Positions 16,153 through 61,460 of a stretch of 64,000 nt of DNA are shown one piece after another. Numbering within the stretch: position 1 is the stretch's first letter; each line of letters begins with the position of its first letter. Under the pieces are notes generated by a model. It searched no databases and was not told where the DNA came from. It saw nothing but the letters and a program-made list of their open reading frames with translations. The stretch comes from an uncultured Bacteroidota bacterium (GTDB lineage: Bacteria > Bacteroidota > Bacteroidia > Bacteroidales > P3). The stretch spans positions 1 through 64,000 of the forward strand of contig CACXXO010000007.1 of NCBI GenBank assembly GCA_902771735.1, written 5' to 3'. The position numbers and the translations under genes are program-made.

Positions 16153-16300
16153 TCCTATAAGTACCAACTCTTTACCATCTCCTTACCATCTCCCTACCAC
16201 CTCCGTATCATCTCCGACCATGGTAGGAGATGGTAGGGAGGTGGCAGGGTGTTGGGGCGGCGTTGCACCCTTCCCGGTCCCTGTCGGGTAGGGGCCGTCT
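16153..16300 (+). repeat. 11-bp-unit hairpin repeat, copy 1
   Basis: Left arm units such as TACCATCTCCT, TACCATCTCCC and TACCACCTCCG lead to a central palindrome ACCATGGT, then right arm units GGTAGGAGATG, GTAGGGAGGTG and GCAGGGTGTTG. Left CCACCTCC pairs with right GGAGGTGG. The head (CCTATAAGTACCAACTC) matches copies 4 and 5. Lies between eno and rplQ, next to the rplQ terminator. Confidence 0.85.
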
Positions 16301-16324
16301 GCTGGGGCGTGAAGGGAGTGGGGC

Positions 16325-16355
16325 AAAAAAGCCCCGCTGGGTTCCAGTGGGGCTT
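16325..16355 (-). terminator. Terminator of the ribosomal superoperon
   Basis: Minus strand: AAGCCCCACTGG / CCAGCGGGGCTT with a short loop and then a T run, 38 nt after the rplQ stop codon. A strong intrinsic terminator. Confidence 0.9.
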
Positions 16356-16392
16356 GGATCGTTGTGTTCTTTACTCTGTGTCTGTGAAGAAC

Positions 16393-16878
16393 TTACTCTG
16401 CCTTGGGGGCTTCGGCCTCGGCGACGGGGGCTTCGACTGCGGGGGCAGCTTCGGCCTTTTTGGCGCGCGAACGGCGGGTGCTCTTGGCTGCCTTCTTGGT
16501 GGTGTCCTTGAGCATGTTCTCGTTGTAGTCAACGAGCTCGATGATGGCCATCTCGGAGTTGTCACCGTGACGGATGCCGGTCTTCAGGATGCGGGTGTAG
16601 CCACCGGGGCGGTTGGCGACTTTCTGCGAAACCTCGCGGAAGAGTTCGTTGACGGCCTCTTTGCTGTGGAGGTAGCTGAAGACGATGCGGCGGTTGTGGG
16701 TGGAGTCCTCTTTGGAGCGGCTGATGAGCGGCTCGACATACACGCGGAGGGCTTTGGCTTTGGCAACGGTGGTCTCGATGCGCTTATGCATGATAAGCGA
16801 GGTGGCCATGTTGGAGAGCATAGCGACGCGATGGGCGTGGGTTCTTGACAGATGATTTACTTTGCAACCGTGTCTCAT
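16393..16878 (-). CDS. rplQ: Ribosomal protein L17
   Basis: 161 residues. The conserved core ([20 protein letters not shown] to about 115) binds 23S rRNA at the base of the large subunit. An Ala/Glu/Lys-rich tail of about 40 residues ([14 protein letters not shown] then [13 protein letters not shown]) extends it; such tails are common in this phylum. Last gene of the superoperon, 9 nt after rpoA, followed by a strong terminator. Confidence 0.97.
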
Positions 16879-16887
16879 ATTCTTTGT

Positions 16888-17880
16888 TTATTCTTTATCA
16901 AGTTTATACTTTGAAACATTCATGCCAAACTCGAGGTTTTTCGAAGCGACGAGGTTCTCGAGCTCGGTAAGTGATTTTTTGCCGAAGTTGCGGAATTTGA
17001 GCAGATCGGCTTTGTTGAAGGACACCAGGTCACCCAGGGTCTCGACTTCGGCGGCCTTGAGGCAGTTGAGTGCGCGGACGGAGAGGTCGAGGTCGATGAG
17101 CTTGGTCTTCAGGAGCTGGCGGGTGTGGGCCGTGGACTCATCGAATTCTTCCTGGACGGGCTTGGGCTCGACGTCGAGGGTGATGCGCTCGTCGGAGAAG
17201 AGCATGAAGTGCTGGATGAGGATGGTGGCGGCCTCTTTGAGGGCTTCCTTCGGATGGATGGAGCCGTCGGTCTCGATATCGAACGTCAGCTTCTCGTAGT
17301 CGGTGCGTTGCTCGACGCGGTAGTCATCGACGGCATACATGACCTTTTTGATGGGGGTGTGGATGGAGTCGATGGCGATGACACCGATGGGGTCGGTGGC
17401 ACGTTTGTTTTCGTCGGCGGGGACGTAACCGCGGCCCTTGTCGATGGAGAGGGTGATGCGGAGCTCGGTGGAAGCTTCCATGTGGCAGATTTCGAGGTCG
17501 GGGTTGAGGACCTGGAATCCGTTGAGGTTGCTGTTGAGGTCACCGGCTTTGAAGACTGTCTGATTTTTGACCGTGAAGGTGAGCTTTTCGTGGTCGTAAT
17601 CCTCCAGCTGACGGCGGAAGCGTATCTGCTTCAAGCGCAGGATAATGTCGGTCATGTCTTCGACCACGCCGGGAAGCGAGGAGAATTCATGGTCGACGCC
17701 ATCAATCTGGACAGATGTGATAGCATAGCCTTCGAGCGAAGAGAGAAGGACGCGACGCAAAGCGTTGCCGATGGTTGTGCCGTAGCCGGGCTCCAACGGA
17801 CGGAATTCGAACGTGCCGCGGAAGTCGTTGGCCTCGAGCATGACCACCTTATCGGGTTTTTGGAATGATAATATTGCCAT
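16888..17880 (-). CDS. rpoA: RNA polymerase subunit alpha
   Basis: 330 residues. The N-terminal dimerisation domain (about 1-230) contains [21 protein letters not shown], and the C-terminal domain (about 255-320) carries the helix-hairpin-helix elements [20 protein letters not shown] and [14 protein letters not shown], which contact UP-element DNA and activators. Length and motifs are ordinary. It lies between rpsD (69 nt upstream) and rplQ (9 nt downstream), the standard alpha-operon order. Confidence 0.98.
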
Positions 17881-17949
17881 TTTTTATCCTTTCTTTCTTT
17901 GAATGTGTTGTTGTCTAAGTCAAGACTCAGACTGACGTCCTGTGAACTA

Positions 17950-18555
17950 TTACTTGGAGTAGAGGTCAACGATGAGCTGCTCGTTGATGGTCTCGGGGAT
18001 GTCGGAGCGCTGAGGGAAGTTGACGAACTTGCCGCTCATGCTGGCGCCGTCCCATTCGAGCCAAGGATAGTTGTTGGCGCGCGAGGCGAGGGCGTCGGTG
18101 ATGACTTCGAGCGATTTGCTGCGCTCGCGGACGGAGACGACGTCGCCTTCTTTCAAAGAATAGGAGGGGACATTGACGACATTGCCGTTGACGGCGATGT
18201 GGCGGTGGGAGACGAGCTGACGGGCCTGGGCGCGGCTGCGGGCGATGCCGAGACGGTAGACCACGTTGTCGAGGCGAGCCTCGATGAGTTTCATGAGCTC
18301 TTCACCGGTGATGCCACCACGGCGCGAGGCTTCGGCGTAGAGTTTACGGAACTGGCGCTCGAGAATGCCATAGGTGTATTTGGCTTTCTGTTTCTCGTTG
18401 AGCTGGATGCCGTACTCGGAGGTCTTGCCACGACGGCGGTTCTGGCCGTGCATGCCGGGGGCGTAGGGTTTCTTCTCGTAGCTCTTGTCCGGGCCGTAGA
18501 TAGGCTCGTGGAACTTTCTTGCGATTTTGGTCTTCGGACCAGTGTATCTTGCCAT
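17950..18555 (-). CDS. rpsD: Ribosomal protein S4
   Basis: 201 residues. Primary 16S rRNA binder needed early in 30S assembly. Begins [15 protein letters not shown] and contains an S4 domain (about 90-155, [20 protein letters not shown]). The zinc-type cysteine cluster seen in some S4 proteins is absent, as usual in this phylum. Between rpsK and rpoA. Confidence 0.97.
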
Positions 18556-18583
18556 TGTTCTTTTGTTCTTTTAAGATTAATAA

Positions 18584-18973
18584 TTACACACGACGACGTT
18601 TGGGGGGACGGCAACCATTGTGGGGCAGCGGGGTGATGTCGGTGATTTCCATAACCTCGATACCGCAGGTGTTGATTGCGCGGATTGCAGATTCACGTCC
18701 TTGACCGGGTCCTTTCACAAAGACCTTGACTTTTCTTAGGCCCAAATCATAAGCAACTTTGCCGCAATCTTCCGCAGCCATCTGAGCGGCGTACGGAGTG
18801 TTTTTCTTCGATCCGCGGAAGCCCATTTTTCCAGCAGACGACCAAGAAATCACTTGACCGGCGTTGTTCGTCAGCGAGACGATGACGTTGTTGAAGGATG
18901 CAAAGATGCATGCTCTTCCTTGAGGTTCAACTTTTACGACTCTTTTTTTGGTCGGTTTTGAAGTTTTTGCCAT
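18584..18973 (-). CDS. rpsK: Ribosomal protein S11
   Basis: 129 residues from the ATG at 18971-18973 ([18 protein letters not shown]). The open frame extends 18 codons further upstream, but that part reaches back toward rpsM and does not look like S11. Conserved features: [30 protein letters not shown] and the tail [17 protein letters not shown]. Helps form the 30S platform near the E site. Confidence 0.95.
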
Positions 18974-34354: not shown

Positions 34355-34365
34355 TGCTGCTAAAA

Positions 34366-34400
34366 ACTTTAAACTTTAAACTCTAAACTTTAAACTTTAC
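34366..34400. repeat. 7-bp tandem repeat between rpsL and rpsG
   Basis: Plus-strand units ACTTTAA, ACTTTAA, ACTCTAA, ACTTTAA, ACTTTAC, ending exactly at the rpsL stop codon. It forms nearly all of the spacer within the str operon. Confidence 0.85.
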
Positions 34401-34744
34401 TTACTTGCCGGCCTGTTTCGGACGCTTGGCACCGTATTTCGAACGACGCTGGCGACGACCGTCCACTCCGCTGGTATCCAAAGCACCGCGGATGATGTGA
34501 TAACGCACACCGGGAAGGTCCTTCACACGGCCTCCGCGGATCATCACGATCGAGTGCTCCTGCAGGTTGTGACCCTCACCCGGGATGTAGGCGTTGACTT
34601 CCTTACCGTTGGTAAGACGCACACGGGCCACTTTACGCATGGCCGAGTTAGGTTTCTTGGGGGTGGTGGTGTACACACGGGTGCAGACACCGCGACGCTG
34701 CGGGCAGCTGTCGAGGGCGGGAGACTTGGACTTGTACTCCATCT
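34401..34744 (-). CDS. rpsL: Ribosomal protein S12, N-terminus anomalous
   Basis: About 114 residues from the ATG at 34742-34744 ([18 protein letters not shown]...). S12 is central to decoding; the loops with [19 protein letters not shown] and [16 protein letters not shown] are intact. Family members normally begin MPTIQQLVRKGR; here no such start exists in frame. The frame stays open upstream to 34820 and reads ...[15 protein letters not shown], which partly resembles the family, but those codons have no ATG/GTG/TTG after the predicted transcription start at about 34783. A nearby ATG (MPVKRDV...) is in another frame. Possible explanations are true loss of about a dozen residues, an unusual start codon, or a sequence error. 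Confidence 0.85.
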
Positions 34745-35106: not shown

Positions 35107-35197
35107 ACCACCCCCCTACCCTCTCCCTACCCTCTCCCACTGCAGTAGGAGATGGTAGGGAGAGGGTAGGGAGTTAGTAGGGAGTTGGGTTGACGTT
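35107..35197. repeat. 11-bp-unit hairpin repeat, copy 2
   Basis: Left arm has two CTACCCTCTCC units, then the palindrome ACTGCAGT, then GGAGATG, GTAGGGAGAGG, GTAGGGAGTTA and GTAGGGAGTTG. Here left CTCTCC pairs with right GGAGAG, where copy 1 has CACCTCC with GGAGGTG. It begins 9 nt after the stop codon of the 1769-residue gene. The longer head and tail of copies 4 and 5 are not seen. Confidence 0.85.
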
Positions 35198-35205: not shown

Positions 35206-38200
35206 CTATCGGACAATGAGTTTGCGGGTGGCGTTGGCAGTGGGGGTAGAGGCAGTGACGAAGTAGACTCCGGGCATGAGGTCGTCAATAGAGAGGATCT
35301 CTTGGGGTTCTTTCACCTCGAAGGACATGACCGTGCGGCCCGAGGCATCGCGGATGGCAACCGCAGCGCCGGGCACGAGGCCCGAGAGGGTGATGTTGCC
35401 GTGAGCGGGATTGGGGGTGATCAGGAAGCGAACACCGGTCGAGGATTGGGGCATGTCGATGCCGTCGACCTCAGTGGTGAATCTCACCACTTCACTCCAC
35501 ACACTGTTCACATCCTCCTCGCAGAGGGTCATCACATACAAATCGTATTCGGAATCGGCCTCGAGGCCTTCGATATGGGCTGCGACGCGGCCAGCCTGCT
35601 GCGCGGGCACGACAACCTGGCTGCCAAGTCCCTGGGCGAAGTCGCGCGGCCCGTATTCCACACGCCACGGCCCGTCGGTCGGAGCCTGCCACTCGATGTC
35701 CACACTGTGAGCCGAGGTCGCGAGCAGCGTCACCTGTTCCACAGGCGGGCAGGTATGGGTGGTAAACGTCACCTCATCGCTCCAAAGCATCTGACCGTCC
35801 CAACACAAGGGGCGCACCCTGAGGGTGTACTCCGTGCCTTGCACGAGGTTTGTCAGGTTCACCTGTGGATTGTCGGTAATGATAGTCGTATCTCCCTGTA
35901 TGCTGTGCAGTTGCAGCTGCCATTCGGTAGCCGGTCCCTGCGGTGTCCACCATACAACGGCCTGGGTCAGGGTGATGTCGCCGAAGGTCACATCGGCCAC
36001 TGGCTGGCAGGGAGGCTCGTGGTGGACGGCATAGATCGACACGCTGTCGAGGCCAAAGGAGGCTGTGGAGGCGATGGTGTCGCGGAAAAAACTGAAGTAG
36101 AAGTTACCCGTACCAACAGGAACCTGGGTGGTGGCTATCTCCACCAACTGCCATTGGGCCTCTGCACCATAGCTGATCTCGTACGATTGCAGGGTGTCGT
36201 CGTAAATCACCACCGGCAGCGCCATGGCGTCGTCTTGGTAAGACACCCTCACACGCATCGGTATCTGTATGCTATGCATCACGCTGTCGTTGTATACGCT
36301 TTGGTACACCCTTGCCAGGAAGTTGACATAGAGGTCGGTATCGGCAATGTGTATCAGTGGGGAAACCACGGTCACGAGACTGTCGCCCGCTGCAACACTG
36401 CCGGTGAGGGCCTGCTGCCCCGAACGGACAGACATGCTACTGTTGAACACCCACGGACGGCTGCTCGAATCCGCCACGTAGTTCCAACAGGGGGCAATGC
36501 GGTTGGTTCGTAAGGTCTCGAAGTCTTCCTCCCACGGCAGCTCGTTGATGCCGCAGTCGGTGGTGAAGGTCACCTCGACGGGGAAGGTAGCCAGTCCTTC
36601 CGTGCACACCGAGGCAACCGCCAGGGTGTATTCCGTCACCTGCTGCAGGCCGGTGACCATGACGCTGTCGCCGTGGAAGTCGATGGTGTCGCCCATGACA
36701 TAGACACAGTAGTGGCCCACGCCGCGCGGGTCGTGTACCACCAGCAGCGCCGAACTGTCGGTCATTGCGGCCACGCTCACCGAGTCGGGAGCCTGGCACG
36801 AGAGGTCATGCACCAGCATCACGTCGTCCACCACCACCGAAGCATGGAATCTGCTGCCGCCATTGCCGAAGCGCATAGCCACATGGATATCGGTAGCGCT
36901 GTAGGAGCCCAACGATACATAGTATTCGTGCCAATCGGTTAGCGAGGGGAGTGTAATGGTCTGTATGGCGGTGAAGGTCAGCGTGTCGGCAGGGTCGCTC
37001 ATCACGCCCACTTGCACCGTGGCATCGCCCCTCGCCCAGAAATCGACGGCCACGCCGCCGAGGCTATCCACCTGCGGCATCACGTAGTAGAAAGGCTCGT
37101 AGTTATAGCCCACATTGGGCACCAGGGCGCCGCTGTTGCCACGACCTATGGTGCGGTTCGTACGGTCGCCGCTGTTGCCGGGGAAGCAGTAGTCGATGAA
37201 GCTCTGGCAGAGGCCCAGGCCGTCATTGTAGCTCGCGTCCCACGGCAACTCGTTGTGGGAAATGACTCCGCAAGCCGTCGCCATCCGGACGTCGAGCACC
37301 GTGGACAAAGTGCCGTCCGACGGGCAGATCGAGGCCACCGAGACGTTGTATCTTGTAGAGTGATGCAGGCCGGTGATGGTGTAGGTATAGCCGCTGACGT
37401 CGGCCGAGTCGATAGTGCTTCCGTCGCTCCACCACAGGCGGTATTGCCCGACCGTGTCGGGGTCGACGATGCGCACGCTGAGGCTGCCGAGGTCGGCGCT
37501 GTCGAGCACCAAGCTGTCGGGACGCGCACACGAGGTGGCGTAGAAGAGCGAGATGTCGTCCACCAAGACCTGCTTCCATCCGCTGAAGCTCGTCAGGCGC
37601 AACGCCAAACGGCCGCTGCCGATGCCGCCAAGGGCATGTTCATAGTAGGTCCAGTTGGTTATTCCGTTGACGAAGGGCAGGGTGTCGAAGGCCGTGAAGC
37701 TGCTCCGGTCGGTGACGTTGGTCATCACGCCGAGCTCGAGCACCGCATCGGACATGCTGGTGCTCACTCCCGACACGTTCATCGAGAGGGAGAGGCCCGC
37801 GTAAGGCACCGCCACAAAAGGCAGCACCAAGAACGAGCGGGCCGTGTCGCCCTGCCACAGGTCGGAATTCATCCTGACGCTATGGGTCATAGAGAAAACC
37901 TCCACGCAGGAATAGCGATCGGGCCCTTCGAGGCGCGTCCAGCAGGAGCCGAAGCTTCCCTCTGCCCAGCTGTCGAAGTTCTCGCCCCATGGGAAGTTGG
38001 CGATGCCTGCGCAGGTGGTGGTGAAGGTGGTGGTGAGGGCTTCAGTATACCCGTCGGGACACACGGTGCGCACGCTGACGTTGTAGGTCGTCTGGGGGCT
38101 GAGGCCGGTGAAGGTGTAGCTGGTGTCGCCCGTCACCGTGACTGTCTGCGTGCCGCAGGTCACCTCGTAGGTGCCGGCACCATTGACATCCTGCCACAAA

Positions 38201-40970: not shown

Positions 40971-41052
40971 CTACCTACCATCTACCTACCAACTCCCTAC
41001 CAACTCCTACCACGGTAGGTGTTGACAGGGAGTTGGTAGGTTGATGGTAATT
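40971..41052. repeat. 11-bp-unit hairpin repeat, copy 3
   Basis: Left units TACCATCTACC, TACCAACTCCC and TACCAACTCC, centre TACCACGGTA, right units GGTGTTG, ACAGGGAGTTG and GTAGGTTGATG. Left CAACTCC pairs with right GGAGTTG. It starts about 20 nt after the thiamine pyrophosphokinase stop codon, where a terminator would be expected. Confidence 0.85.
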
Positions 41053-41071
41053 AAGATTTGTTAACAACAGC

Positions 41072-41767
41072 CTATATCCATGCGCTGCATGGGGGAATGG
41101 GTGCTGCGGAAACCGTCTTCGGGTCGTAGGTGCGGAAAAGGATAACCCAGCCATCGGAATGGAGGCTAAAACTATCGCCAAGAGACTCGTTGAGAGTGGC
41201 TTGCCACCAAAGACGGGGATGCATGGCGTCGAGAGGCCAGCGGAGGCCCTGAGAGGTGACGGAGGTGGCGGGGTCGGGGGTGAAGATGGATATTTGCTGA
41301 CGGGGGAATGTGGCGAAGGTGCGTTCTCCTCGGAAAGCGAGGAAGAGGCCATGGTCTGTGAGCATGCGGATGTCGGCGCCGGGGTGTTCTTCGGCAAAGG
41401 TGACAAGGTAGCTGATGTTGCCCAGGGTGTGGTCCTCACGGCGGCCGGTGGCGCCGAGGATAGAGAATTGGGAATTGGAAATAGGGAATTCACGGGTGGC
41501 CCAGTCCATGGCTTTGTGGAGGTCGTTGTAGTCCTGCTCGTCGACCTGGAGCCAGCGGTCGCCAAGCTGACGCTTGTCTTGTTCAGACAGCGAATCCCCG
41601 TCGCCGATCACAATATAATTCTTAATTCTTAACTCTTCATTCTTCATTTCCCTATAGGCGGAGTCGCAGCAGACGACGAAGTCGGCTTCGCGCAACGCCT
41701 GCAAGGGCACGGGGTGACTCGGGAAGTCGCCGGAAGCGAGAATTACGATATGCTTTGTCTTTTCCAT
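41072..41767 (-). CDS. Thiamine pyrophosphokinase
   Basis: 231 residues. Converts thiamine to thiamine diphosphate with ATP. Family motifs are clear: IGDGDSL, DEQDYNDLHKA (the acidic metal/thiamine site) and LGATGRREDHTLGN. Two segments are encoded by 7-bp repeats: MKNEELRIKN (41617-41651), just before the IGDGDSL strand, and EFPISNSQFSI (41463-41490), just before LGATG. Both lie in loops next to catalytic motifs, and the frame is kept. The start overlaps the PnuT-type gene by 25 nt. Third gene of the thiamine operon under the TPP riboswitch. Confidence 0.93.
   Translation of the reverse strand: MEKTKHIVILASGDFPSHPVPLQALREADFVVCCDSAYREMKNEELRIKNYIVIGDGDSLSEQDKRQLGDRWLQVDEQDYNDLHKAMDWATREFPISNSQFSILGATGRREDHTLGNISYLVTFAEEHPGADIRMLTDHGLFLAFRGERTFATFPRQQISIFTPDPATSVTSQGLRWPLDAMHPRLWWQATLNESLGDSFSLHSDGWVILFRTYDPKTVSAAPIPPCSAWI
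41463..41490. repeat. 7-bp tandem repeat in thiamine pyrophosphokinase (a)
   Basis: Plus-strand units GAGAATT, GGGAATT, GGAAATA, GGGAATT. Translated in frame (minus strand) as part of EFPISNSQFSI. Confidence 0.8.
41617..41651. repeat. 7-bp tandem repeat in thiamine pyrophosphokinase (b)
   Basis: Plus-strand units AATTCTT, AATTCTT, AACTCTT, CATTCTT, CATTTCC. Translated in frame (minus strand) as MKNEELRIKN. Confidence 0.85.
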
Positions 41768-42306: not shown

Positions 42307-44541
42307 TTAGAAACGGTATATCAAACGTCCCATGAAGTTGATGCCAGGCTGCTGGAGCCAGGCGCGGTCGTGGTAGTAGCCGTACCACGAGGCGTCGTCG
42401 CTGAAGTAGTCGCCCACCCAGGCGTTGAGGCGGTACTGGTGGTCGAGCAGGTTGTTGACCTGCAGCTGGGCCTCGATTTGCTTGGTTCCGCCGAGGTGCC
42501 AGATGTAGGAGGCTTTGAAGTTGAGGAGGAAGTAGGGGTCGATGGCGTAGCACTCGCGCGAGGTGTTGTCGGCGTACTGCTTGCCGACGTATTTGCCGAT
42601 GAGCTGTATTTTGGCGTCCTTGACGGGCATGAAGGTGGCGATGGCGGCGCCGACGACGGAGGGCGAGAGGGAGAGGTTGGTGTTGGCGGTGACGGTCTGG
42701 AGGACGGTGTCGCCGTCGGCAAAGTCGGTGTAGGTGAAGTCGACGGCCTTGTTCTGGCTCAAGGTGAGGTTGGCGTCGAAGCGGAACCAGTCGACGGGCT
42801 GGTAGCCGGCCTGGAGCTCGATGCCGAGACGGTAGCTCTTCTCGACGTTCTCCATCAGCGCGTAGCCGCTGCTGCTGACGTCGCCGTTGGGGGTCATCTG
42901 GTCGCGGTAGAGCATGGCGTAGAGGTTGGCGCTGAAGTTCCAGCGGGCGGAGGCTATCTGGTAGCCGAGCTCAAGGTCGAGCATGGTTTCGGGGCGGATG
43001 GTGTCGCCGCTGCCGATGGCGTCCTTGATGTCGCTGCGGCGCGGCTCGCGGTTGCTGATGCCGGCCACGAAGTAGGTGCGCTGGTTGTCGCTGATGCGGT
43101 AGTTGATGCCGGCCTTGGGGTTGAAGAAGAGGTAGTTGGCGTCGAAGTCCATGTCGAAGAGGTCGTCGGCATAGCCGTAGACCTTGTAGTTGACCATGCG
43201 CAGCTGGAGGTCGGCGTAGGCGTTGAGGTCGGCGTTGAAGTCGTAGTTGGCCTTGGCGTAGAGGGTGTTGTCGTATTTGTCGCCGTAGTTGCGGTACCAC
43301 TCGTAGGGGGTGTCGAGGTGGACGGCGGTGTCGCGGAACCAGATGATGTCGCCGTAGTGCTCGCCGTCGTAGTAGAGGAAGTTGTCGCCGAAGGAGAGGC
43401 TGAGCCGCTCGCCGCTGTAGCGGGCGGAGAGGTTGGCGGTGTAGGCGTTGTTGTAGAGGTATTTGCGGGTGACGAGGTTGTGCTTCGCGCCGTCCTCGAG
43501 GGCGGTGAGGCCGTAGGCTTTGTATTTCTTGTTTTTCATCTGCTCGTAGTAGCCGTCGCCGTGGGTGAAGTCGAAGGCGGCGTTGAGGCTCCAGCGGTCG
43601 GAGAGGAGGTGGGAGAGGTAGAGCTGGTAGTGCTGCTGCCAGTAGTTGTCGGTCTCGTTGGGGTAGTACATGGTTTTGCCGTCCATTTTGTATTCGCCGG
43701 AGGGGTTGTAGGTGGGGTCGTCGTCGAGTTGGTAGTCATAGGCGCCGTCCCAGGTGATGCCGGTGGTCTGGCTGCCGATGATGGCGAGGAGTTTTATCAG
43801 GGTACGCTCGCCGTACCAGCTGGCGCTGCCGAAGAAGCTCTGCTGGTCGGTGCCCCAGGAGCGTATGTAGCCGTCGGAGGTCAGTCCGCTGTAGGCGAAG
43901 TCGAAGGAGAGGCCGCTCTTGAGGATGCCGGTACCGGCGCTGAAGCTGTACTGGCGGGTGTTCCAGCTGCCGAAGCCGAGGTCGGCCTCGCCGTAGGCGC
44001 GGTTCTGGGCATTGAGGGTCTGCATGTTGATGGCGGCGCCGAAGGCGGGGCTGCCGCCGTTGCTGGCGCCCACGCCGCGCTGTATCTGCATGCTCTGGGC
44101 CATGCCGCCGAGGTTGGGGATGTTGTACCAGAAGACCTCTTGGCTCTCGGCATCGTTGAGGGTGATGCCGTTGATGTTGACGTTGATGCGCGAGCCGTCG
44201 ACGCCGCGGATGCGGAGGGCTGTGGCGCCCACGCCGCCGTTCTCGCCGCTGGCCACGACGGAGGGCTGGGTCTCGAGCATGAAGGGCAGGCTCACTGCAG
44301 AGCGCGCCTCGTCGAGCTCGGAGCGGTCGAGGGTGCTGGTGGTGAGGGGCGTCTTGTTGCTCACGCGGACGTCTTGGATTATCACCTCGTCGAGGGTGCG
44401 GACGGTGTCCTGTGCGTTTAAGGTGAAAGGTGAAAGGTGAAAGGTGAAAATGAGCGCGAGGCAGGCTATCATCTGCTTGCGGCTAATCCTGGTGGCCTTA
44501 TAAAGAAGATAGCGGCCACAGCTATAAATGTTGTGTTTCAT
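42307..44541 (-). CDS. TonB-dependent outer-membrane receptor, probably for thiamine
   Basis: 744 residues. The signal region is long (about 1-43) and includes FTFHLSPFTLNAQ, encoded by four perfect 7-bp repeats. A TonB box-like stretch (DEVIIQDVRV) precedes the plug (GENGGVGATALRIRGVDGSRINV), then a 22-strand barrel ending NFMGRLIYRF with a terminal Phe. There is no SusD partner and no N-terminal carboxypeptidase-like domain, so this is a classical vitamin/metal-type receptor. The TPP riboswitch immediately upstream and downstream pnuT and kinase genes argue that it imports thiamine or its phosphates across the outer membrane. Confidence 0.9.
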   Translation of the reverse strand: MKHNIYSCGRYLLYKATRISRKQMIACLALIFTFHLSPFTLNAQDTVRTLDEVIIQDVRVSNKTPLTTSTLDRSELDEARSAVSLPFMLETQPSVVASGENGGVGATALRIRGVDGSRINVNINGITLNDAESQEVFWYNIPNLGGMAQSMQIQRGVGASNGGSPAFGAAINMQTLNAQNRAYGEADLGFGSWNTRQYSFSAGTGILKSGLSFDFAYSGLTSDGYIRSWGTDQQSFFGSASWYGERTLIKLLAIIGSQTTGITWDGAYDYQLDDDPTYNPSGEYKMDGKTMYYPNETDNYWQQHYQLYLSHLLSDRWSLNAAFDFTHGDGYYEQMKNKKYKAYGLTALEDGAKHNLVTRKYLYNNAYTANLSARYSGERLSLSFGDNFLYYDGEHYGDIIWFRDTAVHLDTPYEWYRNYGDKYDNTLYAKANYDFNADLNAYADLQLRMVNYKVYGYADDLFDMDFDANYLFFNPKAGINYRISDNQRTYFVAGISNREPRRSDIKDAIGSGDTIRPETMLDLELGYQIASARWNFSANLYAMLYRDQMTPNGDVSSSGYALMENVEKSYRLGIELQAGYQPVDWFRFDANLTLSQNKAVDFTYTDFADGDTVLQTVTANTNLSLSPSVVGAAIATFMPVKDAKIQLIGKYVGKQYADNTSRECYAIDPYFLLNFKASYIWHLGGTKQIEAQLQVNNLLDHQYRLNAWVGDYFSDDASWYGYYHDRAWLQQPGINFMGRLIYRF
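44421..44448. repeat. 7-bp tandem repeat in receptor signal peptide
   Basis: Four perfect plus-strand AGGTGAA units. On the minus strand they encode part of FTFHLSPFTLN in the signal-peptide region of the TonB receptor. Confidence 0.88.
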
Positions 44542-44548
44542 AATTTCA

Positions 44549-44655
44549 TTCCTTACGCCGGCATTATCCGGATCAAGTTTCAGGGTATGTTCTCAGCACA
44601 TTCATGCAATCAAGCAGTCAAGCAATCAAGCACTTATGAGCACCCCTATGCTCTT
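44549..44655 (-). promoter_or_regulatory. TPP riboswitch
   Basis: Minus strand: AGGGGTGC near the 5' end, CTGAGA with ACATACCCTGAAACTTGATC, then CCGGATAATGCCGGCGTAAG, the conserved thiamine-diphosphate aptamer (THI box). The 3' end lies only about eight nt before the receptor ATG, so control by hiding the ribosome-binding site is likely; no separate terminator hairpin fits in. The variable arm between GGGGTGC and CTGAGA holds three 8-bp repeats (CTTGATTG-type). It controls the receptor, PnuT-type and kinase genes. Confidence 0.93.
44607..44630. repeat. 8-bp tandem repeat in riboswitch variable arm
   Basis: Plus-strand units CAATCAAG, CAGTCAAG, CAATCAAG inside the optional stem region of the TPP riboswitch. 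Confidence 0.75.
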
Positions 44656-44665
44656 TTTGACGATG

Positions 44666-50960: not shown

Positions 50961-51728
50961 GTGAAACTCTATACCGACAACGTCGTCAAAAAATACCGCT
51001 CACGCACCGTCGTCAAAGGAGCCTCCGTCGAAGTGTGCCAGGGTCAGATTGTAGGCCTCCTCGGCCCCAACGGCGCCGGCAAAACCACCACCTTCTACAT
51101 GGTCGTCGGCATCATCAAACCCTACTCCGGCAAAGTCTATCTCGCACCCGAACCTGAAAAGGGCGAGACCGGCGAGACCATCGAGCTCACCCAATACCCC
51201 ATGTACAAACGTTCGCAAATGGGCGTAGGATACCTGGCCCAGGAAGCCTCGGTCTTCCGCCAGATGTCGGTGGCCGACAACATCATGTCCATCCTCGAAT
51301 TCCGCAAGGACCTGGACAAGGAGCAGCGCGAGGCCAAACTCGAGTCGCTGCTCGACGAGTTCCACCTCCAGCACATACGCGACAGCAAGGGCATCCAGCT
51401 CTCCGGCGGCGAGCGCCGTCGCACCGAGATTGCCCGGGCCCTCGCCAACGACCCCATGTTCCTCCTCCTCGACGAACCCTTCGCAGGCGTCGACCCCATC
51501 GCCGTGCAGGACATCCAGGACATTGTCTGGAAACTCAAAGAACGCAACATTGGCATCCTCATCACCGACCACAACGTCCGCGAGACCCTCTGCATCACCG
51601 ACCACGCCTACCTCCTCTACGAAGGCTCCGTCCTCCAAAAAGGCACTCCCCGAGCCCTCGCCGACGACCCCGATGTCCGCGAGAAATACCTCGGACGCGA
51701 CTTCGTCCTCAAAGAGCGTCATTCCTAA
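50961..51728 (+). CDS. lptB: Lipopolysaccharide export ATPase LptB
   Basis: 255 residues with a GTG start. ATPase of the LptBFG complex that lifts lipopolysaccharide from the inner membrane. Walker A GPNGAGKTTTFYMVVG, Q-loop in YLAQEASVFRQMSV, signature LSGGERRRTEIARAL, Walker B MFLLLDEPFAGVDP and the H-loop TDHNVRETL are all present, and the pattern PFAGVDPIAVQDIQ is typical of LptB. An insert of about ten residues (APEPEKGETGETIEL) lies after GKVYL. The spacer before it consists of 7-bp repeats, so its translation may depend on kdsD. A strong terminator follows. Confidence 0.95.
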   Translation: MKLYTDNVVKKYRSRTVVKGASVEVCQGQIVGLLGPNGAGKTTTFYMVVGIIKPYSGKVYLAPEPEKGETGETIELTQYPMYKRSQMGVGYLAQEASVFRQMSVADNIMSILEFRKDLDKEQREAKLESLLDEFHLQHIRDSKGIQLSGGERRRTEIARALANDPMFLLLDEPFAGVDPIAVQDIQDIVWKLKERNIGILITDHNVRETLCITDHAYLLYEGSVLQKGTPRALADDPDVREKYLGRDFVLKERHS

Positions 51729-51830: not shown

Positions 51831-51995
51831 CGTCACCGGGATGGGCAGGGCGAAGGGGCGGGGAGGAACGGAACAGATGCCGGCAGCCTGTCACCGGCCT
51901 ACCAACAACCTACCATCTCCTACCATCGTCGGAGATGGCACGGAGGTGGTAGGGAGATGGTAAGGAGTTGGGAAAGAGTTGATACCAATAGGGTG
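51831..51995 (-). repeat. 11-bp-unit hairpin repeat, copy 4 (long form)
   Basis: On the minus strand the element reads ACCCTAT head, CAACTCTTTCCCAACTCC, units TACCATCTCCC, TACCACCTCCG and TGCCATCTCCG, centre ACGATGGT, units GGTAGGAGATG, GTAGGTTGTTG and GTAGGCCGGTG, then a C-rich tail ending CCCGGTGACGA. Copy 5 matches it end to end. It lies between two terminators, one from lptB and one from the small gene at 52109-52234. Confidence 0.9.
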
Positions 51996-52052
51996 TTAAT
52001 TATCAGACTGTTGCAACAGTAGCGAAAACAGTGTTTTTTTGCAGTTTTGCAA

Positions 52053-52435: not shown

Positions 52436-53743
52436 ATGAATATTCTACTCCTTGGATCGGGCGGACGCGAACACGCAATAGCCTATAAGATAGCGCAAAG
52501 CGCTCAATGCAACCAGCTCTTCATCGCCCCCGGCAACGCGGGGACGGAGAAGGTGGGAGAGAACGTGAAACTGGATATTGCCGACTTCGAAGCCGTGGGG
52601 CAGTTCGCCATCAGCCACAGGGTAGAGATGGTGGTGGTGGGGCCCGAGGCCCCGCTGGTGGCCGGCATCGCCGACTACTTCGCCGAGCAGTCCCTGCTGA
52701 AGAACATCATGGTCATCGGTCCCTCGAAACAGGGTGCCATGCTGGAAGGCAGCAAGGACTATGCCAAAGCTTTCATGCTGAGGCACAACATTCCCACGGC
52801 ACACTATCGCACCTTCACCGCCGAAACCCTGGCCCAAGGTGAACAATTCCTCGAAAGCCTGAAAGCGCCCTACGTGCTGAAGGCCGACGGCCTGGCGGCG
52901 GGCAAAGGGGTGCTGATAGAGGACAACCTGGCCACCGCCAAAGCCCACCTGCGCGAGATGCTGAAAGAGCGCAAGTTTGGCGATGCGTCGGCCAGCGTGG
53001 TGATTGAAGAATACCTCGACGGCATCGAGATGAGCGTCTTTGTGCTCACCGACGGAAGCCACTACCTGCTGCTGCCTTCGGCCAAGGACTATAAACGCAT
53101 CGGCGAAGGCGACACCGGGCTGAACACCGGCGGCATGGGCTCGGTCAGCCCTGTGCCGTTTGCCGACAAGGCTTTCATGAAGAAGGTGGAGGACCGCATC
53201 GTGAAGCCCACCGTCCGCGGCCTGCGCGACGAGAAAATCCCCTACTGCGGTTTCATCTTCATCGGACTGATGTGCAAGAACATAGGCACCGAGGAGGCCG
53301 AGCCTTACGTCATCGAGTACAACGTACGCATGGGCGACCCCGAGACCGAAAGCGTCTTCCCTCGCATCAAGAACGACGTGGTAGAGCTCTTCGAAAACGC
53401 CGCCCACGGCAACCTCGACGGCTGCAAACTCGAAGTGGATCCCCGCACGGCGGCCTGCGTGATGATGGTGGCCGACGGCTATCCCGAGAGCTACAAGAAG
53501 GGCGACCTCATCGACCTCGGCACCGACGACGAGACCCTCATCTTCCACTGCGGCACAAAACGCAACGAGCTGGGCAAGCTGGCCACCAACGGCGGCCGCG
53601 TGCTCTGCGCCACCGCTCTGGCCAACAGCCTCCCCGAGGCCTTGCTCAAGAGCTACAACCGCTGCATGGGCATCACTTGGAACGGCAAATACTACCGCCG
53701 CGACATAGGACAGGACCTGCTGAAACTGATGCAGGAAGGATAA
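52436..53743 (+). CDS. purD: Phosphoribosylamine-glycine ligase
   Basis: 435 residues. Second step of purine synthesis, joining glycine to phosphoribosylamine with ATP. Starts MNILLLGSGGREHAIAYKIA; ATP-grasp region contains VLKADGLAAGKGVLI and the signature NVRMGDPETE (about 290-300). Length normal. Possibly the first gene of a plus-strand run with the DMT permease (34 nt further on) and later genes, none of which is a purine gene. Confidence 0.97.
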   Translation: MNILLLGSGGREHAIAYKIAQSAQCNQLFIAPGNAGTEKVGENVKLDIADFEAVGQFAISHRVEMVVVGPEAPLVAGIADYFAEQSLLKNIMVIGPSKQGAMLEGSKDYAKAFMLRHNIPTAHYRTFTAETLAQGEQFLESLKAPYVLKADGLAAGKGVLIEDNLATAKAHLREMLKERKFGDASASVVIEEYLDGIEMSVFVLTDGSHYLLLPSAKDYKRIGEGDTGLNTGGMGSVSPVPFADKAFMKKVEDRIVKPTVRGLRDEKIPYCGFIFIGLMCKNIGTEEAEPYVIEYNVRMGDPETESVFPRIKNDVVELFENAAHGNLDGCKLEVDPRTAACVMMVADGYPESYKKGDLIDLGTDDETLIFHCGTKRNELGKLATNGGRVLCATALANSLPEALLKSYNRCMGITWNGKYYRRDIGQDLLKLMQEG

Positions 53744-58513: not shown

Positions 58514-58553
58514 TAACGAAACAACGTTATTACGCAATAAAAAAGGAAAGAAC

Positions 58554-58799
58554 ATGACCGACCAAGAGAAACCTGCCGTCGAGCAGAAAGTAAAGAACGC
58601 ATTGGCACAAATCCGCCCCTACCTGCAGCAGGACGGCGGCGATGTGGAATACGTCGACATGACCGCCGAGGGCGTCGTCATCGTGCGCCTCAAAGGTCAC
58701 TGCCACTCCTGCCCCCATGCCATGGCCACCCTCAAGCAGGGCATCGAAGCCGCACTTAAAAAAGTCATCCCCGAAGTAAAATCCGTCGAAAAAATATGA
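58554..58799 (+). CDS. NifU-domain iron-sulfur scaffold protein
   Basis: 81 residues, a stand-alone NifU C-terminal domain. QQDGGDVEYVDM and the cluster-binding motif CHSC (in LKGHCHSCPHAMATLKQGIE) are typical. Holds nascent clusters for transfer, probably together with the Mrp protein encoded upstream. Stop codon overlaps the start of the cobalamin adenosyltransferase gene by 4 nt (ATGA). Confidence 0.93.
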   Translation: MTDQEKPAVEQKVKNALAQIRPYLQQDGGDVEYVDMTAEGVVIVRLKGHCHSCPHAMATLKQGIEAALKKVIPEVKSVEKI

Positions 58800-59341
58800 T
58801 ATACACCAAGACTGGCGACCGCGGCACCACCTCTCTCGTGGGTGGCAGCCGCGTGGCCAAGGACGACCACCGCGTCGAAGCCTACGGCACCGTCGACGAG
58901 CTCAACTCCCACATCGGCCTCCTGGCCGAGATGTTACGCACCACCCAGGGCGGCTACTACGACGAGCTCAAAGCCGTGCAACACAACCTCTTCACCCTCC
59001 AGACCCTCCTGGCCACCGAGGACGAGACCATCTATGCACGCCTGCCGCAGCTGGCCGAAGAGGAAGTGGAAATCCTTGAACGCCAGATAGACACCATCAG
59101 CGACCTCCTGCCCAAATTGCAAAACTTCGTCATCGCCGGAGGCAACATCACCGGCGCCCAATGCCACGTCTGCCGCACCGTCTGCCGCCGCGCCGAGAGG
59201 TGCGTCGTCACCCTCGCCCGCGAGACAAAAATCGACGACATCATCCTCCGCTACCTCAACCGCCTATCCGACTATCTTTTTGTCCTCGGAAGGAGGGCTG
59301 TGGTCGCCGACGGCAAGCAGGAAGATTTGTATATCAGTTGA
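58796..59341 (+). CDS. PduO-type cobalamin adenosyltransferase
   Basis: 181 residues. Makes adenosylcobalamin from cob(I)alamin and ATP. ATP site TKTGDRGTTSLVGGSRV at the N-terminus; YGTVDELNSHIG; and the C-terminal helices CRRAERCVVTLARE and ILRYLNRLSDYLFVLGR are typical. Needed for adenosylcobalamin-dependent enzymes such as methylmalonyl-CoA mutase, which fits propionate-forming Bacteroidales; that gene is not in the window. Translationally coupled to the NifU-domain gene. Confidence 0.95.
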   Translation: MIYTKTGDRGTTSLVGGSRVAKDDHRVEAYGTVDELNSHIGLLAEMLRTTQGGYYDELKAVQHNLFTLQTLLATEDETIYARLPQLAEEEVEILERQIDTISDLLPKLQNFVIAGGNITGAQCHVCRTVCRRAERCVVTLARETKIDDIILRYLNRLSDYLFVLGRRAVVADGKQEDLYIS

Positions 59342-59353
59342 TTGCAAAAAAAA

Positions 59354-59384
59354 TTTGTCAGTATCGAAAAATCACGTACTTTTG
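59354..59384 (+). promoter_or_regulatory. Promoter of the DUF2795-DUF2520-tatD genes
   Basis: TTTG (59354-59357), 19-bp gap, TACTTTTG (59377-59384), 37 bp before the ATG at 59422. Confidence 0.8.
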
Positions 59385-59421
59385 CACGATTTTTTAGCAA
59401 GAAACAGTCATTTTTTTGAGT

Positions 59422-59643
59422 ATGTATTGGACACTTGAATTAGCATCGAAATTGGAAGACGCTCCCTGGCCCGCCACCAAGGAAGAACTGATTGACTACG
59501 CCCAGCGCACCGGCGCTCCCATGGAGGTTGTGGAGAACCTCATGGAAATTGAGGATGAGGGGGATCAGTATGAAAGCATAGAGGACATCTGGCCCGACTA
59601 TCCCACCAAGGAGGACTTTTTCTTTGAAGAAGACGAATATTAA
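59422..59643 (+). CDS. Small acidic DUF2795-type protein
   Basis: 73 residues from the ATG at 59422 (a TTG at 59416 is possible but less likely). MYWTLELASKLEDAPWPATK, then GAPMEVVENLMEIEDEGD, then a very acidic end (PTKEDFFFEEDEY). It resembles the DUF2795 proteins of Bacteroidota; function unknown. Its own promoter precedes it. The last 20 nt overlap the next gene. Confidence 0.88.
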   Translation: MYWTLELASKLEDAPWPATKEELIDYAQRTGAPMEVVENLMEIEDEGDQYESIEDIWPDYPTKEDFFFEEDEY

Positions 59644-60409
59644 CAATAGTATTTCCATCATTGGGTCGGGCAACGTGGCCACCCACCTTGCCCTGGCTCT
59701 TCACAGCGCAGGCCACACCATCCGACAGGTCCTCTCGCGCGAGTTCGACCACGCTTCATTGCTGGCCTCGCGCGTGAGCGCGCAACCCATTGACCGGGTC
59801 GACCGCCTCGACAGCCAGTCAGATGTCTATCTGCTGGCCGTCAACGACGACGCCCTCTACGACCTGGCCCTCGACCTCCATCTGCCCGACGCCCTCGTCG
59901 TCCACACCTCGGGCAGCACCCCAGCTTCGGTCCTCAAGCCCGTGTCGCGACATTACGGCGTCGTATGGTCGCCTCAAACCTTCGTGCGCGACCTCGCCAT
60001 GGACTATACCCGCCTGCCACTCTGCATCGAAGGATGCAACCCCACCGTCGAAGCCAACATCGAAACACTCTTCTCTTCCATCAGCAACCATATCCATCAC
60101 CTCGACTTCGAGCAGCGCCGCTGGGCGCACCTCGCCGCCGTGATGGTCAACAACTTCGGCAACGCCATCAACGCTCTGGCGCAAGAGCTTGCCGAAAACC
60201 ACGGCATCGACTTCACCATGCTGCGCCCATTGGCCGAGATGACCGTCAAGAAAATGGACTACGGCCCCCTGTGGGCTCAGCAGACAGGCCCCGCCCGCCG
60301 CCACGACCAGAAAACCCTCGACGCCCAGCGCCGCCTCCTGGCCGACGACCCCACGATGCTGCACCTCTACGACATGATGACAGAAATCATCCAAAGCCGT
60401 GACAAATAA
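59624..60409 (+). CDS. Rossmann-fold DUF2520 protein, probable NADP-dependent oxidoreductase
   Basis: 261 residues with a TTG start inside the previous gene; no ATG lies near the beginning of the Rossmann fold, so an overlapping TTG start is the best choice. The nucleotide-binding motif SIIGSGNVATHLALAL is followed by a domain like F420-dependent NADP oxidoreductase, and by the helical DUF2520 domain (about 130-255, with VMVNNFGNAINALAQELAEN). Substrate not known. Overlaps the tatD gene by 11 nt. Confidence 0.88.
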   Translation: MKKTNINNSISIIGSGNVATHLALALHSAGHTIRQVLSREFDHASLLASRVSAQPIDRVDRLDSQSDVYLLAVNDDALYDLALDLHLPDALVVHTSGSTPASVLKPVSRHYGVVWSPQTFVRDLAMDYTRLPLCIEGCNPTVEANIETLFSSISNHIHHLDFEQRRWAHLAAVMVNNFGNAINALAQELAENHGIDFTMLRPLAEMTVKKMDYGPLWAQQTGPARRHDQKTLDAQRRLLADDPTMLHLYDMMTEIIQSRDK

Positions 60410-61202
60410 TTCCCAATTCGTAGACACCCACTGCCACCTCTACGACGAGGCCTTCGACGAGGACCGCGACCAGGCCGTCGCCCGCGCCCTCGACGCCGGC
60501 GTCACCACCATGCTCCTGCCCGACATCGACAGTACCTCCACCCCCCGCCTCGACGCCCTCTACAATGCTCACCCACAACACTTCTTCCGCATGGCCGGCC
60601 TCCATCCCACTTCCGTCAAAGAGGACTTTGAGGCCGAACTCCGGCACGTCCACGACCGCCTCTTCCACCTTTCATCATTTGTCGCCGTGGGCGAAATCGG
60701 CATGGACCTCTACTGGGACCGCACCTATGAGGAACAGCAGCGCGAAGCACTTCGCACCCAACTGCTTTGGGCCGAGGAACTCGACCTCCCCGTCTGCCTC
60801 CACATCCGCAAGGCCCACAACGAGGTCTTCGCTGTGTTGCGCGAACTGAACCGCCTCTCGTGGCGCGGCGTCATGCACTGCTTCGGCGGCAGCGTCCAGG
60901 AGGCCCGGCGCGCCCTCGAGATGGGCTTCCACCTCGGCATCGGCGGCGTGGTGACCTTCAAGAACGCCACCATGGCCGAAGTCGCCAAGGCCGCACCCCT
61001 CGACCGCCTCCTCCTCGAGACCGACGCCCCCTACCTCAGCCCCGTCCCCCACCGCGGCCAGCGCAACGAGAGCGCCTACATCCCACTCATCGCCCAAAAA
61101 ATTGCCGACCTCCGGGGCATCTCCCTCGCCGAGGTCGCCGACGTCACCACCGCCTCCGCACAAACCCTTTTCAACCTACGGCAATCCCGCATGAACGATT
61201 GA
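60399..61202 (+). CDS. tatD: TatD-family metal-dependent hydrolase
   Basis: 267 residues, GTG start overlapping the previous gene. Metal ligands are visible: HxH in VDTHCHLYDE, Glu in VGEIGMDLYW, His in LPVCLHIRKAH, His in MHCFGG and Asp in ETDAPYLSP. TatD proteins have 3'-5' DNA exonuclease and related activity and may act in DNA damage or D-aminoacyl-tRNA clearance. Symbol follows the family; close paralogues such as YcfH-type are possible. Followed by a terminator. Confidence 0.92.
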   Translation: MTNNSQFVDTHCHLYDEAFDEDRDQAVARALDAGVTTMLLPDIDSTSTPRLDALYNAHPQHFFRMAGLHPTSVKEDFEAELRHVHDRLFHLSSFVAVGEIGMDLYWDRTYEEQQREALRTQLLWAEELDLPVCLHIRKAHNEVFAVLRELNRLSWRGVMHCFGGSVQEARRALEMGFHLGIGGVVTFKNATMAEVAKAAPLDRLLLETDAPYLSPVPHRGQRNESAYIPLIAQKIADLRGISLAEVADVTTASAQTLFNLRQSRMND

Positions 61203-61230
61203 TTTCCAGCACAATAATACCATCGATACC

Positions 61231-61265
61231 AAAATGCTGCTGAACCTCGGTTTGGCAGCATTTTT
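61231..61265 (+). terminator. Terminator after tatD
   Basis: AAAATGCTGC / GCAGCATTTT stem with a 14-nt loop and a T run, 28 nt after the tatD stop codon. Confidence 0.85.
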
Positions 61266-61290
61266 CTGTATCTGTAGCAGGTTGACAATC

Positions 61291-61460
61291 AGTACCCTAT
61301 AGGCACCAACTCTTTCCCAACTCCTTACCATCTCCCTACCATCTCCGTACCATCTCCCACCACGGTAGGAGATGGTAGGCCGTTGGTAGGCCGTTGACAG
61401 GCCGTCGGCACATTTCCCGTCCCTCCCCGTCCCCTCGCCATGCCCCCTCCCGGTGACGAT
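61291..61460 (+). repeat. 11-bp-unit hairpin repeat, copy 5 (long form)
   Basis: Head AGTACCCTATAGG, CAACTCTTTCCCAACTCC, then units TACCATCTCCC, TACCATCTCCG and TACCATCTCCC, centre ACCACGGT, units GGTAGGAGATG, GTAGGCCGTTG, GTAGGCCGTTG and ACAGGCCGTCG, then a C-rich tail ending CCCGGTGACGA. Nearly identical to copy 4 along its whole length. It starts 26 nt after the tatD terminator. Confidence 0.9.

Follow-up and report, generated by a model that had tools for sequence, protein, structure and literature searches.

A large family of evenly spaced palindromic 11-bp ladders in a Bacteroidales genome, possibly marking chromosome-organising DNA sites

The genome of this uncultured Bacteroidales bacterium carries a large, dispersed family of palindromic elements, here called ladders, in which two opposed arms of 11-bp units meet at a short central palindrome. 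The ladders lie between genes, are spaced more evenly than chance would produce, and are retained at orthologous loci of a relative whose flanking sequences have diverged almost to background. That the ladder is kept while the surrounding DNA changes suggests a site helping to organise the chromosome, and the reading that we prefer, at a probability of roughly 40%, is that of a dispersed double-stranded DNA site for a putative protein which would organise or insulate the chromosome. The binding of such a protein, its architectural or insulating effect, and selection on the spacing are the parts that we infer.

The C-rich unit of the ladder reads TACCA-W-C-N-CC-N, and the G-rich units keep the same 11-bp step. 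The centre approximates CTCC-TACC-RY-GGTA-GGAG, with a single 10-bp step beside it, and the total length is about 80–130 bp. As the preliminary description had stated, 11-bp arms and a central palindrome are present in all five copies of the window (the whole 64-kb stretch that was analysed), and Tandem Repeats Finder detected period 11 at each of them. A two-unit pattern with at most three mismatches matched 21 times in the window, against a mean of 0.01 in 100 shuffles, and these matches are confined to the five ladder places. Folded as single-stranded DNA, the copies have z-scores of −3.6 to −9.9, none of 200 shuffles folding equally well for any window copy.

Copy 1 (16160..16262, minus strand; model core 16186–16255; 84.0 bits, E 1.3e-19; folding z −4.6) lies between the genes of enolase (14583–15875) and ribosomal protein L17 (16393–16821), both on the minus strand. 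Copy 2 (35108..35190, no strand assigned; 71.8 bits, E 3e-16; z −5.0) is located between the S12 gene (34401–34742, minus) and the stop of a gene for an fn3/Por_Secre_tail protein (35206–40515, minus). Copy 3 (40971..41052, minus; 89.3 bits, E 4.9e-21; z −9.9) is found about 20 bp past the stop of the thiamin pyrophosphokinase gene (41072–41767, minus) and is edged, as in one subfamily, by TGTTAACAAATCTTAAT on the minus strand (about 41049–41067). Copy 4 (51890..52016, plus; model core 51891–51960; 68.0 bits, E 3.2e-15; z −3.6) carries the conserved right end TTAATTATCAGACTGTTGCAA and lies between genes of an ABC transporter (50961–51728, plus) and phosphoribosylglycinamide synthetase (52436–53743, plus). 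Copy 5 (61291..61415, minus; model core 61328–61397; 77.6 bits, E 7.6e-18; z −3.6) is located between a TatD-type DNase gene (60399–61202, plus) and a carboxylase-domain gene (61595–63364, plus). All five previously listed copies are therefore present, the fourth starting near 51890 instead of 51831. A scan of the window against Rfam at gathering thresholds returned a TPP riboswitch alone and no ladder family, and the element was not described among the literature matches listed for searches by wording and by unit letters, so that no name was found for this intergenic family, in agreement with the earlier view.

The original count of five copies proved to be a large underestimate. The covariance-model search proposed at that stage found many more in the host genome and in relatives, with at least 109 distinct places in the host; this number is a floor, since 150 of 1593 candidates were scored. 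When 451,560 bp of the host genome was scanned completely, 34 copies emerged, and all 119 two-unit matches in that sequence lie at them; extrapolation gives roughly 150–175 copies for the whole genome. In the alignment of 107 copies (two of the 109, with a shifted centre, were dropped), columns C19, T21, C24, A25, C29, C30, A32, and C33 are identical throughout, an invariance partly favoured by the selection of copies, which used the model and a filter on the central columns (28–43). The core identity of random ladder pairs within the host has a median of 0.79. Many copies carry a directional end, and subfamilies have such ends in common, e.g., TTATCAGGTAGTT. About 197–346 bp of right flank is common to five copies; an autonomous parent element was considered for it and rejected, as the flank runs into the starts of genes that look secreted by eye, not into a transposase.

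The distribution of the ladders is non-random and even in the host and in the relatives G069, G002, and G035, as expected of a chromosome-organising site, but not in G028. In the full scan of the host, with the weak copy C1:211416 (in no called gene) included, 32 gaps with a mean of 11.9 kb had a gap CV of 0.46, while random intergenic placement gave 0.86–0.91 and under none of three nulls did any of 2000 draws reach this evenness; one gap was shorter than 5 kb, against 9.0–9.5 expected. For the list of at least 109 copies the gap CV was 0.63, and none of 5000 draws of a conditional test, from which the weak copy was omitted, was as even. In G069, of which 400 kb was scanned, the gap CV was 0.54 versus 0.83–0.90 at random (P 0.0015–0.0095), and gaps below 3 kb were not significantly rare (1 versus 3.1–3.4 expected, P 0.07–0.15). 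Among the matches listed, the conditional test found spacing more even than chance in G002 (P 0.0002) and G035 (P 0.0008), a P of 0.07 in G011 with three usable gaps, and spacing no more even than chance in G028 (P 0.45; places listed by two joined searches). The median gap is about 11 kb in the host, 12 kb in G069, and, among the matches listed, 26 kb in G002 and 44 kb in G035. The even genomes are not independent tests because their ancestry is common, and the host and G069 also have many loci in common.

Of 19 syntenic loci, 14 have kept the ladder in G069. The median identity between host and G069 is 0.87 for the ladder cores and 0.64 for the flanks, with a background of 0.556 for mismatched flanks. 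Five of the 19 loci lack a ladder in G069, one of them ambiguously (copy C11:24035 was counted as a miss, and another alignment of it ends near a G069 element), and 9 of the 23 G069 elements were unmatched to host copies. Within the genus the copy number is patchy: a match at E ≤ 0.001 is absent from 7 of 23 congeners, and G079 has at least 8 match rows versus at least 85 in G035, both being about equally related (rows count both strands). Such patchiness is odd for an essential organiser. Ladder unit variants recur in other Bacteroidota, and unit types differ between genomes as whole sets. We tentatively suggest, with less assurance than for the host itself, a Bacteroidota-wide class of organising sites, built of opposed phased 11-bp units in genome-specific variants, that would set near-equal domains in some chromosomes via a putative protein. 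Neither even spacing nor retention in place had been among the expectations of the preliminary description.

Ladders are almost always intergenic, as first described: none of the 109 copies of the model list and one of the 34 full-scan copies, within a weak gene call, lie inside called genes. The 109 copies comprise 40 in divergent, 54 in tandem, and 12 in convergent context and 3 at contig edges; the 34 comprise 9 divergent, 17 tandem, 7 convergent, and the one inside the weak call. Genes were called by a simple codon-usage caller, which is error-prone with short frames; copy 1, for instance, was miscalled convergent owing to a 62-codon frame taken as its left neighbour. The proximity to a stop codon or terminator (10–60 bp) noted for the window fails beyond it, given the share of divergent copies. 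Relative to the regions available, the full scan placed 7 copies in 19 convergent, 9 in 35 divergent, and 17 in 110 tandem regions, and G069 has 3 in 11, 8 in 22, and 12 in 103, respectively. Junctions of opposed genes are therefore favoured, as either insulation or termination would predict. No strand or replication orientation bias was seen in 42 confidently oriented copies, and adjacent oriented pairs point in the same direction in 10 cases and in opposite directions in 12.

Under the organising-site reading, each arm would present a helically phased row of about 3–5 candidate binding sites, 11 bp each, on one face of the helix. The two rows would meet head to head at the palindromic centre, which could allow cooperative protein loading from either side, and neighbouring ladders might then be bridged by the protein or form barriers. 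With a site about every 12 kb, outside genes, the chromosome would be partitioned into similarly long domains, or transcription in one domain would be insulated from the next. The even spacing, conservation in place, invariant columns, mixed gene context, and lack of orientation bias support this reading, and the mobile-repeat, termination, and RNA readings appear weaker.

The ladder might instead be a REP- or MITE-like non-autonomous mobile hairpin, one whose earlier spread through the clade was followed by persistence through descent, though we consider this doubtful. This reading would fit the high and patchy copy number among congeners, the directional ends of subfamilies, the ladder-free loci and unmatched elements of G069, and the whole-set differences of unit types between genomes. 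Evenness would then require target immunity of some form or the loss of close copies, but exclusion acting over a short distance would leave the evenness at the 26–44 kb gaps of G002 and G035 (matches listed) unexplained. Alignments at five ladder-free sites (four of the five G069 misses and C2:88929, the right side of which is not collinear) revealed no clean junction or target duplication, the flanks being much diverged. As to the REP type, the Y1 (REP-type) transposase family PF01797 has no match at E ≤ 0.001 in the host genome (95.94% complete), and its occurrence in relatives does not follow the number of ladders: there are no matches in G028, 2–4 in the ladder-dense G021, G069, G002, G007, and G035, and some in G004 and G001, both without a ladder match. 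A REP transposase as the driver was rejected on these grounds. In 15 stretches covering 14 of the 26 Y1 matches in relatives, a ladder lies 1.3–3.3 kb away at six genes, five of these stretches having been picked for a nearby ladder, but none lies within 1 kb except for a weak match about 440 bp off in G002; several of the inspected genes have other palindromes alongside, different from the ladder. No match was obtained in viral contigs, searched with one exact pattern, in plasmids, searched with copy 3, or in phages, searched with copy 5.

Known repeats resemble the ladder in part. REP elements, with their GTAG tag and RAYT transposases, are likewise high-copy, extragenic, and palindromic, but measure 20–40 bp, whereas the ladder is a longer and modular element with even spacing; the roles hypothesised for REPs concern supercoiling, termination, and the stability of mRNA (PMC3733652). 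The ladder also differs from them in the lack of a Y1 transposase match in the host and in having no clear Y1 gene association in relatives; no Y1 gene flanked by the ladder as its own repeat was found among the 14 of 26 matches inspected. According to the REP literature, transposase genes and repeats show no obvious correlation (PMC3733652), so that the absence of a Y1 match makes REP membership less probable. GTAG recurs along the G-rich arm, and a single REP-like tag is therefore not distinguishable. With respect to MITEs, the whole ladder is palindromic and many copies have a directional end; the alignments at the five ladder-free sites, whose flanks are too diverged for a firm reading, show no clean junction or duplication. 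The BrickBuilt MITE of Porphyromonas gingivalis is similarly a dispersed, always intergenic Bacteroidales element built of tandem units; as described, however, each element has between 1 and 22.8 direct repeats of 23 nt, with leader and tail segments, small inverted-repeat ends, and 19 elements per genome, while the ladder has two opposed arms of 11-bp units, with period 11 at all five window copies, and well over a hundred copies (PMC4596501).

The ladder could also act on transcripts. As a two-way transcription stop, whose C-rich arm, met first, would recruit Rho with help from the hairpin and so keep read-through from neighbours, it would explain why each strand offers the C-rich arm first with CC pairs every 11 nt, why ladders occur between genes in all orientations, and why opposed-gene junctions are favoured. 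We nevertheless regard this as unlikely. Rho is not known to need the invariant A and T positions, which counts against it; G is tolerated at free positions (column 6 in 33 and column 17 in 26 of 107 copies); and termination alone leaves the even spacing unexplained. Moreover, among 77 gene 3′ ends facing a ladder in tandem or convergent context, 35 already have a terminator-like hairpin before it, 4 only beyond it, and 38 neither (the control, 11 of 45, was scanned to 200 bp and is not matched to the ladder side, which took ends up to 400 bp away). Ladders lying beyond such a hairpin also favour the organising site. An RNA element, either a long mRNA 3′-end hairpin protecting transcripts or a structured RNA, is more improbable still. 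Its long stems, the strongly negative folding z-scores (obtained for DNA), and the position of 38 of the 54 tandem copies nearer to the upstream stop than to the downstream start agree with it. Across 107 copies, 2859 cells are paired versus 2803 (sd 12) after shuffling, a modest excess above all 500 shuffles, and columns 17–54 (47 pairs versus 28.8 expected) and 26–45 (95 versus 70.7) covary. In a set of 25 copies, 16 of 500 shuffles reached the covariation score and 11 reached the pair types; pairing fell to 29–55% when the partner was slid, but the paired-cell share equalled that of shuffled copies (78.4% versus 78.0%). A hairpin role would predict the pairing excess and covarying columns too; however, copy kinship or template-switch repair of imperfect palindromes could give the same covariation. 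The RNA proposal of the preliminary description is thus weakened by the divergent copies (40 of 109, and 9 of the 34 fully scanned ones), the modest pairing, and the lack of an Rfam family in the window, although pairing exceeded all 500 shuffles.

Least probable, and only remotely so, is a DNA-transfer recognition sequence resembling uptake sequences, which would have accumulated by biased transfer, with spacing reflecting fragment length and with species-specific variants. The uptake sequences of Pasteurellaceae and Neisseriaceae are, like the ladder, dispersed, reported as evenly spaced (citing Karlin et al.), and variable between groups, as the ladder units are between genomes (PMC1939737). 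As characterised there, they are short, for the most part lack inverted-repeat structure, and are often genic (65% inside genes in H. influenzae and 35% in N. gonorrhoeae), whereas the ladder is about 80–130 bp long, palindromic, and intergenic (PMC1939737).

To our knowledge, hardly any sequence elements that set evenly spaced domain boundaries in bacteria are known. The boundary question would become testable with such a palindromic site, whose unit is readable, whose spacing is even, and which natural relatives either carry or lack. If the ladder were instead mobile, it would represent a large Bacteroidales repeat family, not found among the literature matches listed, and its even spacing would still need explaining. 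Bacterial chromosomes are considered to be partitioned into supercoiled domains, of which 400–500 are reported for E. coli (PMC3820752). In P. gingivalis, a 77-bp inverted repeat before the capsule operon, bound by the HU protein PG0121, resembles the ladder in being a long and imperfect inverted repeat located between genes in a member of the Bacteroidales; it is bound by a nucleoid protein and described at a single locus (PMC3969353).

All five copies reported in the preliminary description are present in the window, four of them where they had been placed (16160..16262, 35108..35190, 40971..41052 and 61291..61415) and the fourth beginning near 51890 rather than 51831 (51890..52016). In the element, here called the ladder, a C-rich arm made up of 11-bp units with the consensus TACCA-W-C-N-CC-N is followed by a centre close to CTCC-TACC-RY-GGTA-GGAG and by a G-rich arm repeating the C-arm unit in reverse; the step is 10 bp innermost and 11 bp elsewhere, and the period of 11 was recovered by independent tandem-repeat analysis. 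A paired-unit pattern gave 21 matches in the window against 0.01 expected, and the folding of every window copy was better than that of all 200 of its shuffles. The motif TGTTAACAAATCTTAA adjoins the left side of one ladder subfamily, as at window positions 41049-41067 and in several further copies.

The covariance-model search proposed in the preliminary description revealed a family far larger than five. The two-unit pattern yielded 421 matches in the source genome (2,291,778 bases searched in 37 contigs, 95.94% complete), against 7 with the reversed control. The model, built on 25 copies, gave 150 scored matches, which represent at least 109 distinct places, since the palindrome often matches both strands; 109 is a lower bound, as 150 of 1593 candidates were scored. 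A full search of 451,560 bp, taking in the remainder of contig C7 together with 240 kb of contig C1, found 34 copies, with which all 119 two-unit matches (up to three mismatches) in this DNA coincide. The whole-genome estimate is about 173 copies by length extrapolation and about 154 by share of two-unit matches (539 in total).

The main new result is that the ladders are evenly spaced. The 32 gaps of the full set average 11.9 kb with a CV of 0.46, whereas random intergenic placement of the same copy number gives a CV of 0.86-0.91; one gap is below 5 kb, against 9.0-9.5 expected. None of 2000 draws was as even under each null used (163 intergenic sites of at least 60 bp, length-weighted or unweighted; 83 sites of at least 150 bp, weighted). 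In G069, the relative used for the syntenic comparison, 23 copies in 400 kb have a CV of 0.54 versus 0.83-0.90 (P 0.0015-0.0095), while the rarity of gaps below 3 kb, taken alone, was not significant (P 0.07-0.15). A test that took the outermost copies of each contig as given indicated evenness in the relatives G002 (P 0.0002) and G035 (P 0.0008), both with incomplete copy lists, and gave P 0.07 from three usable gaps in G011 and no excess over chance in G028 (P 0.45). Owing to common ancestry, the genomes are not independent trials. The median gap is about 11 kb in the source genome, 12 kb in G069, 26 kb in G002 and 44 kb in G035. A short exclusion distance of fixed length would not give rise to evenness at such unlike scales, subject to the incompleteness of the G002 and G035 lists.

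Gene calls came from a simple caller, which misread the window context at least once. None of the 109 copies lies within a called gene; among the 34 of the full set one does, and that gene call is weak. The neighbouring genes are divergent at 40, tandem at 54 and convergent at 12 of the 109 copies, with three at contig edges; the counts are 9, 17 and 7 in the full set, plus the one inside a gene call, and 8, 12 and 3 among the 23 copies of G069. Relative to the regions available, ladders favour junctions of opposed genes (full set: convergent 7/19, divergent 9/35, tandem 17/110). In tandem contexts the ladder centre is a median 138 bp from the upstream stop and 190 bp from the downstream start, the stop being closer in 38 of 54. 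For 77 gene ends facing a ladder, a terminator-like hairpin lies between stop and ladder in 35 and only past the ladder in 4, and the scan detected none in 38; ladder-free ends, scanned over a shorter distance, have one in 11 of 45. The intergenic siting noted earlier thus held, and the link to gene 3' ends did not, given the 40 divergent copies. The picture is of an element of non-coding spacers, often past transcription stops. Five ladder copies have about 197-346 bp of flanking DNA in common, reaching the starts of genes whose products seem, on visual inspection, to be secreted, which suggests that a gene family shares a duplicated promoter region.

Nineteen ladder loci of the source genome could be placed, by collinear alignment of both flanks, in the G069 DNA retrieved, and a ladder is present there at 14; of the five loci without one, one is ambiguous. 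No precise junction was seen in five alignments at ladder-free sites of the relative. Nine of the 23 G069 ladders were not matched to a copy in the source genome. At the 14 kept loci, identity over the 70-bp core has a median of 0.87 and ranges from 0.69 to 1.0, against 0.64 for DNA 70-160 bp off centre, 0.556 for mismatched flanks and 0.79 for cores of random copy pairs within the source genome. Copies at their loci are therefore kept close to the consensus of the family, with adjoining spacer DNA close to background. The ladder at C21:15076, flanks included, is identical over 150 bp in the two species, whose other spacers are barely more alike than background; this may reflect recent transfer or contamination.

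Eight C-arm columns never vary in 107 aligned copies (C19, T21, C24, A25, C29, C30, A32 and C33); these copies were found by the model and filtered at the centre, so invariance is favoured for columns 28-43. Their whole-stem pairing (2859 cells versus 2803, sd 12, shuffled) lay above all 500 shuffles, with an excess of 2% that stems from a few columns, 17-54 and 26-45 above all. When 25 copies were aligned, 78.4% of cells paired versus 78.0% shuffled; of 500 shuffles, 16 reached the covariation score and 11 the number of pair types, and pairing fell to 29-55% when the partners were slid. Symmetric unit arrays account for most of the pairing. A protein reading each unit is the simpler view; some selection for pairing, or repair of imperfect palindromes, is possible.

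Among 23 congeners, the model (E<=0.001) matched 16 and gave no match in 7. Match rows, counting both strands, were most numerous in G021 and G069 (at least 150 each), G007 (87), G035 (85) and G002 (78), followed by G028 (46), G011 (29), G018 (27) and G024 (12), and sparse in G079 (8), G014 (6), G015 (5), G013 (4), G022 (3), G008 (2) and G072 (2). The distribution is clade-biased and patchy, since the nearest of 59 sampled genomes by one common protein are the ladder-dense G069, G021, G002 and G007, yet G079 (85% identity) has few ladders and G035 (84%) many. An exact three-unit pattern, in a search of 84,980 species genomes that may omit records of the source or very near genomes, found 35 stretches; the record names point to Bacteroidales or genera of that order for 34 and to Zobellia for one. 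Seven of those genomes had 86, 55, 31, 16, 15, 12 and 5 two-unit matches (up to two mismatches; control 0-1), the 15 being those of Zobellia, with one array seen. In four of the seven the unit ends in a genome-specific letter (G, T, C or A); the centres inspected differ. Zobellia amurskyensis has about 16 tandem 11-bp units in a single direction beside a terminator-like hairpin (stretch positions 4020-4192); several dispersed repeat families of G085, the genome of an uncultured Bacteroides, incorporate the 11-bp units beside other conserved blocks and a different central hairpin.

One could hypothesise, with a probability of roughly 40%, that the ladder is a double-stranded DNA site for a putative protein, which would bind the 11-bp units on one helix face from both sides of the dyad, and that the evenly placed sites would divide or insulate the chromosome. 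We infer the protein and its function; structure, location, spacing and conservation are observed. A mobile hairpin, which we consider doubtful, would account for copy number and patchiness, less well for retention in place, and would leave the spacing unexplained. Rho-type termination is unlikely, although it fits arms with the C-rich part first and the preference for opposed-gene junctions; an RNA role, which the stem would suit, seems slightly less likely again. The spacing and unit variants would fit a transfer signal, a very improbable role given the mismatch in ladder length and location.

The ladder belongs with dispersed intergenic palindromic repeats, among which its modular build and even spacing are unusual. 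No description of the 11-bp unit or the ladder was among the literature matches listed, by words and unit letters. The nearest named element met in the order is BrickBuilt of P. gingivalis, with 19 elements of 23-nt direct repeats, as opposed to 11-bp units (PMC4596501). REPs are GTAG-tagged, tied to RAYT transposases and shorter than the ladder (PMC3733652). A Y1 (RAYT-type, PF01797) transposase had no match in the source genome, and Y1 matches do not track copy number in relatives, which speaks against this transposase as the ladder's driver. Long palindromes beside some Y1 genes of relatives, of the GCGTGCCGTnAGGTACGCA type in two species and another type in a third, may be a separate REP-like system.

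Tandem-repeat analysis also detected five separate arrays of 7-bp units in the window (14335-14365, 34364-34399, 41616-41648, 44420-44449 and 63365-63395), with about 4-5 copies each and differing units; they may represent another short-repeat theme in this genome. A TPP riboswitch (RF00059, 60.7 bits) lies at 44533-44657 on the minus strand.
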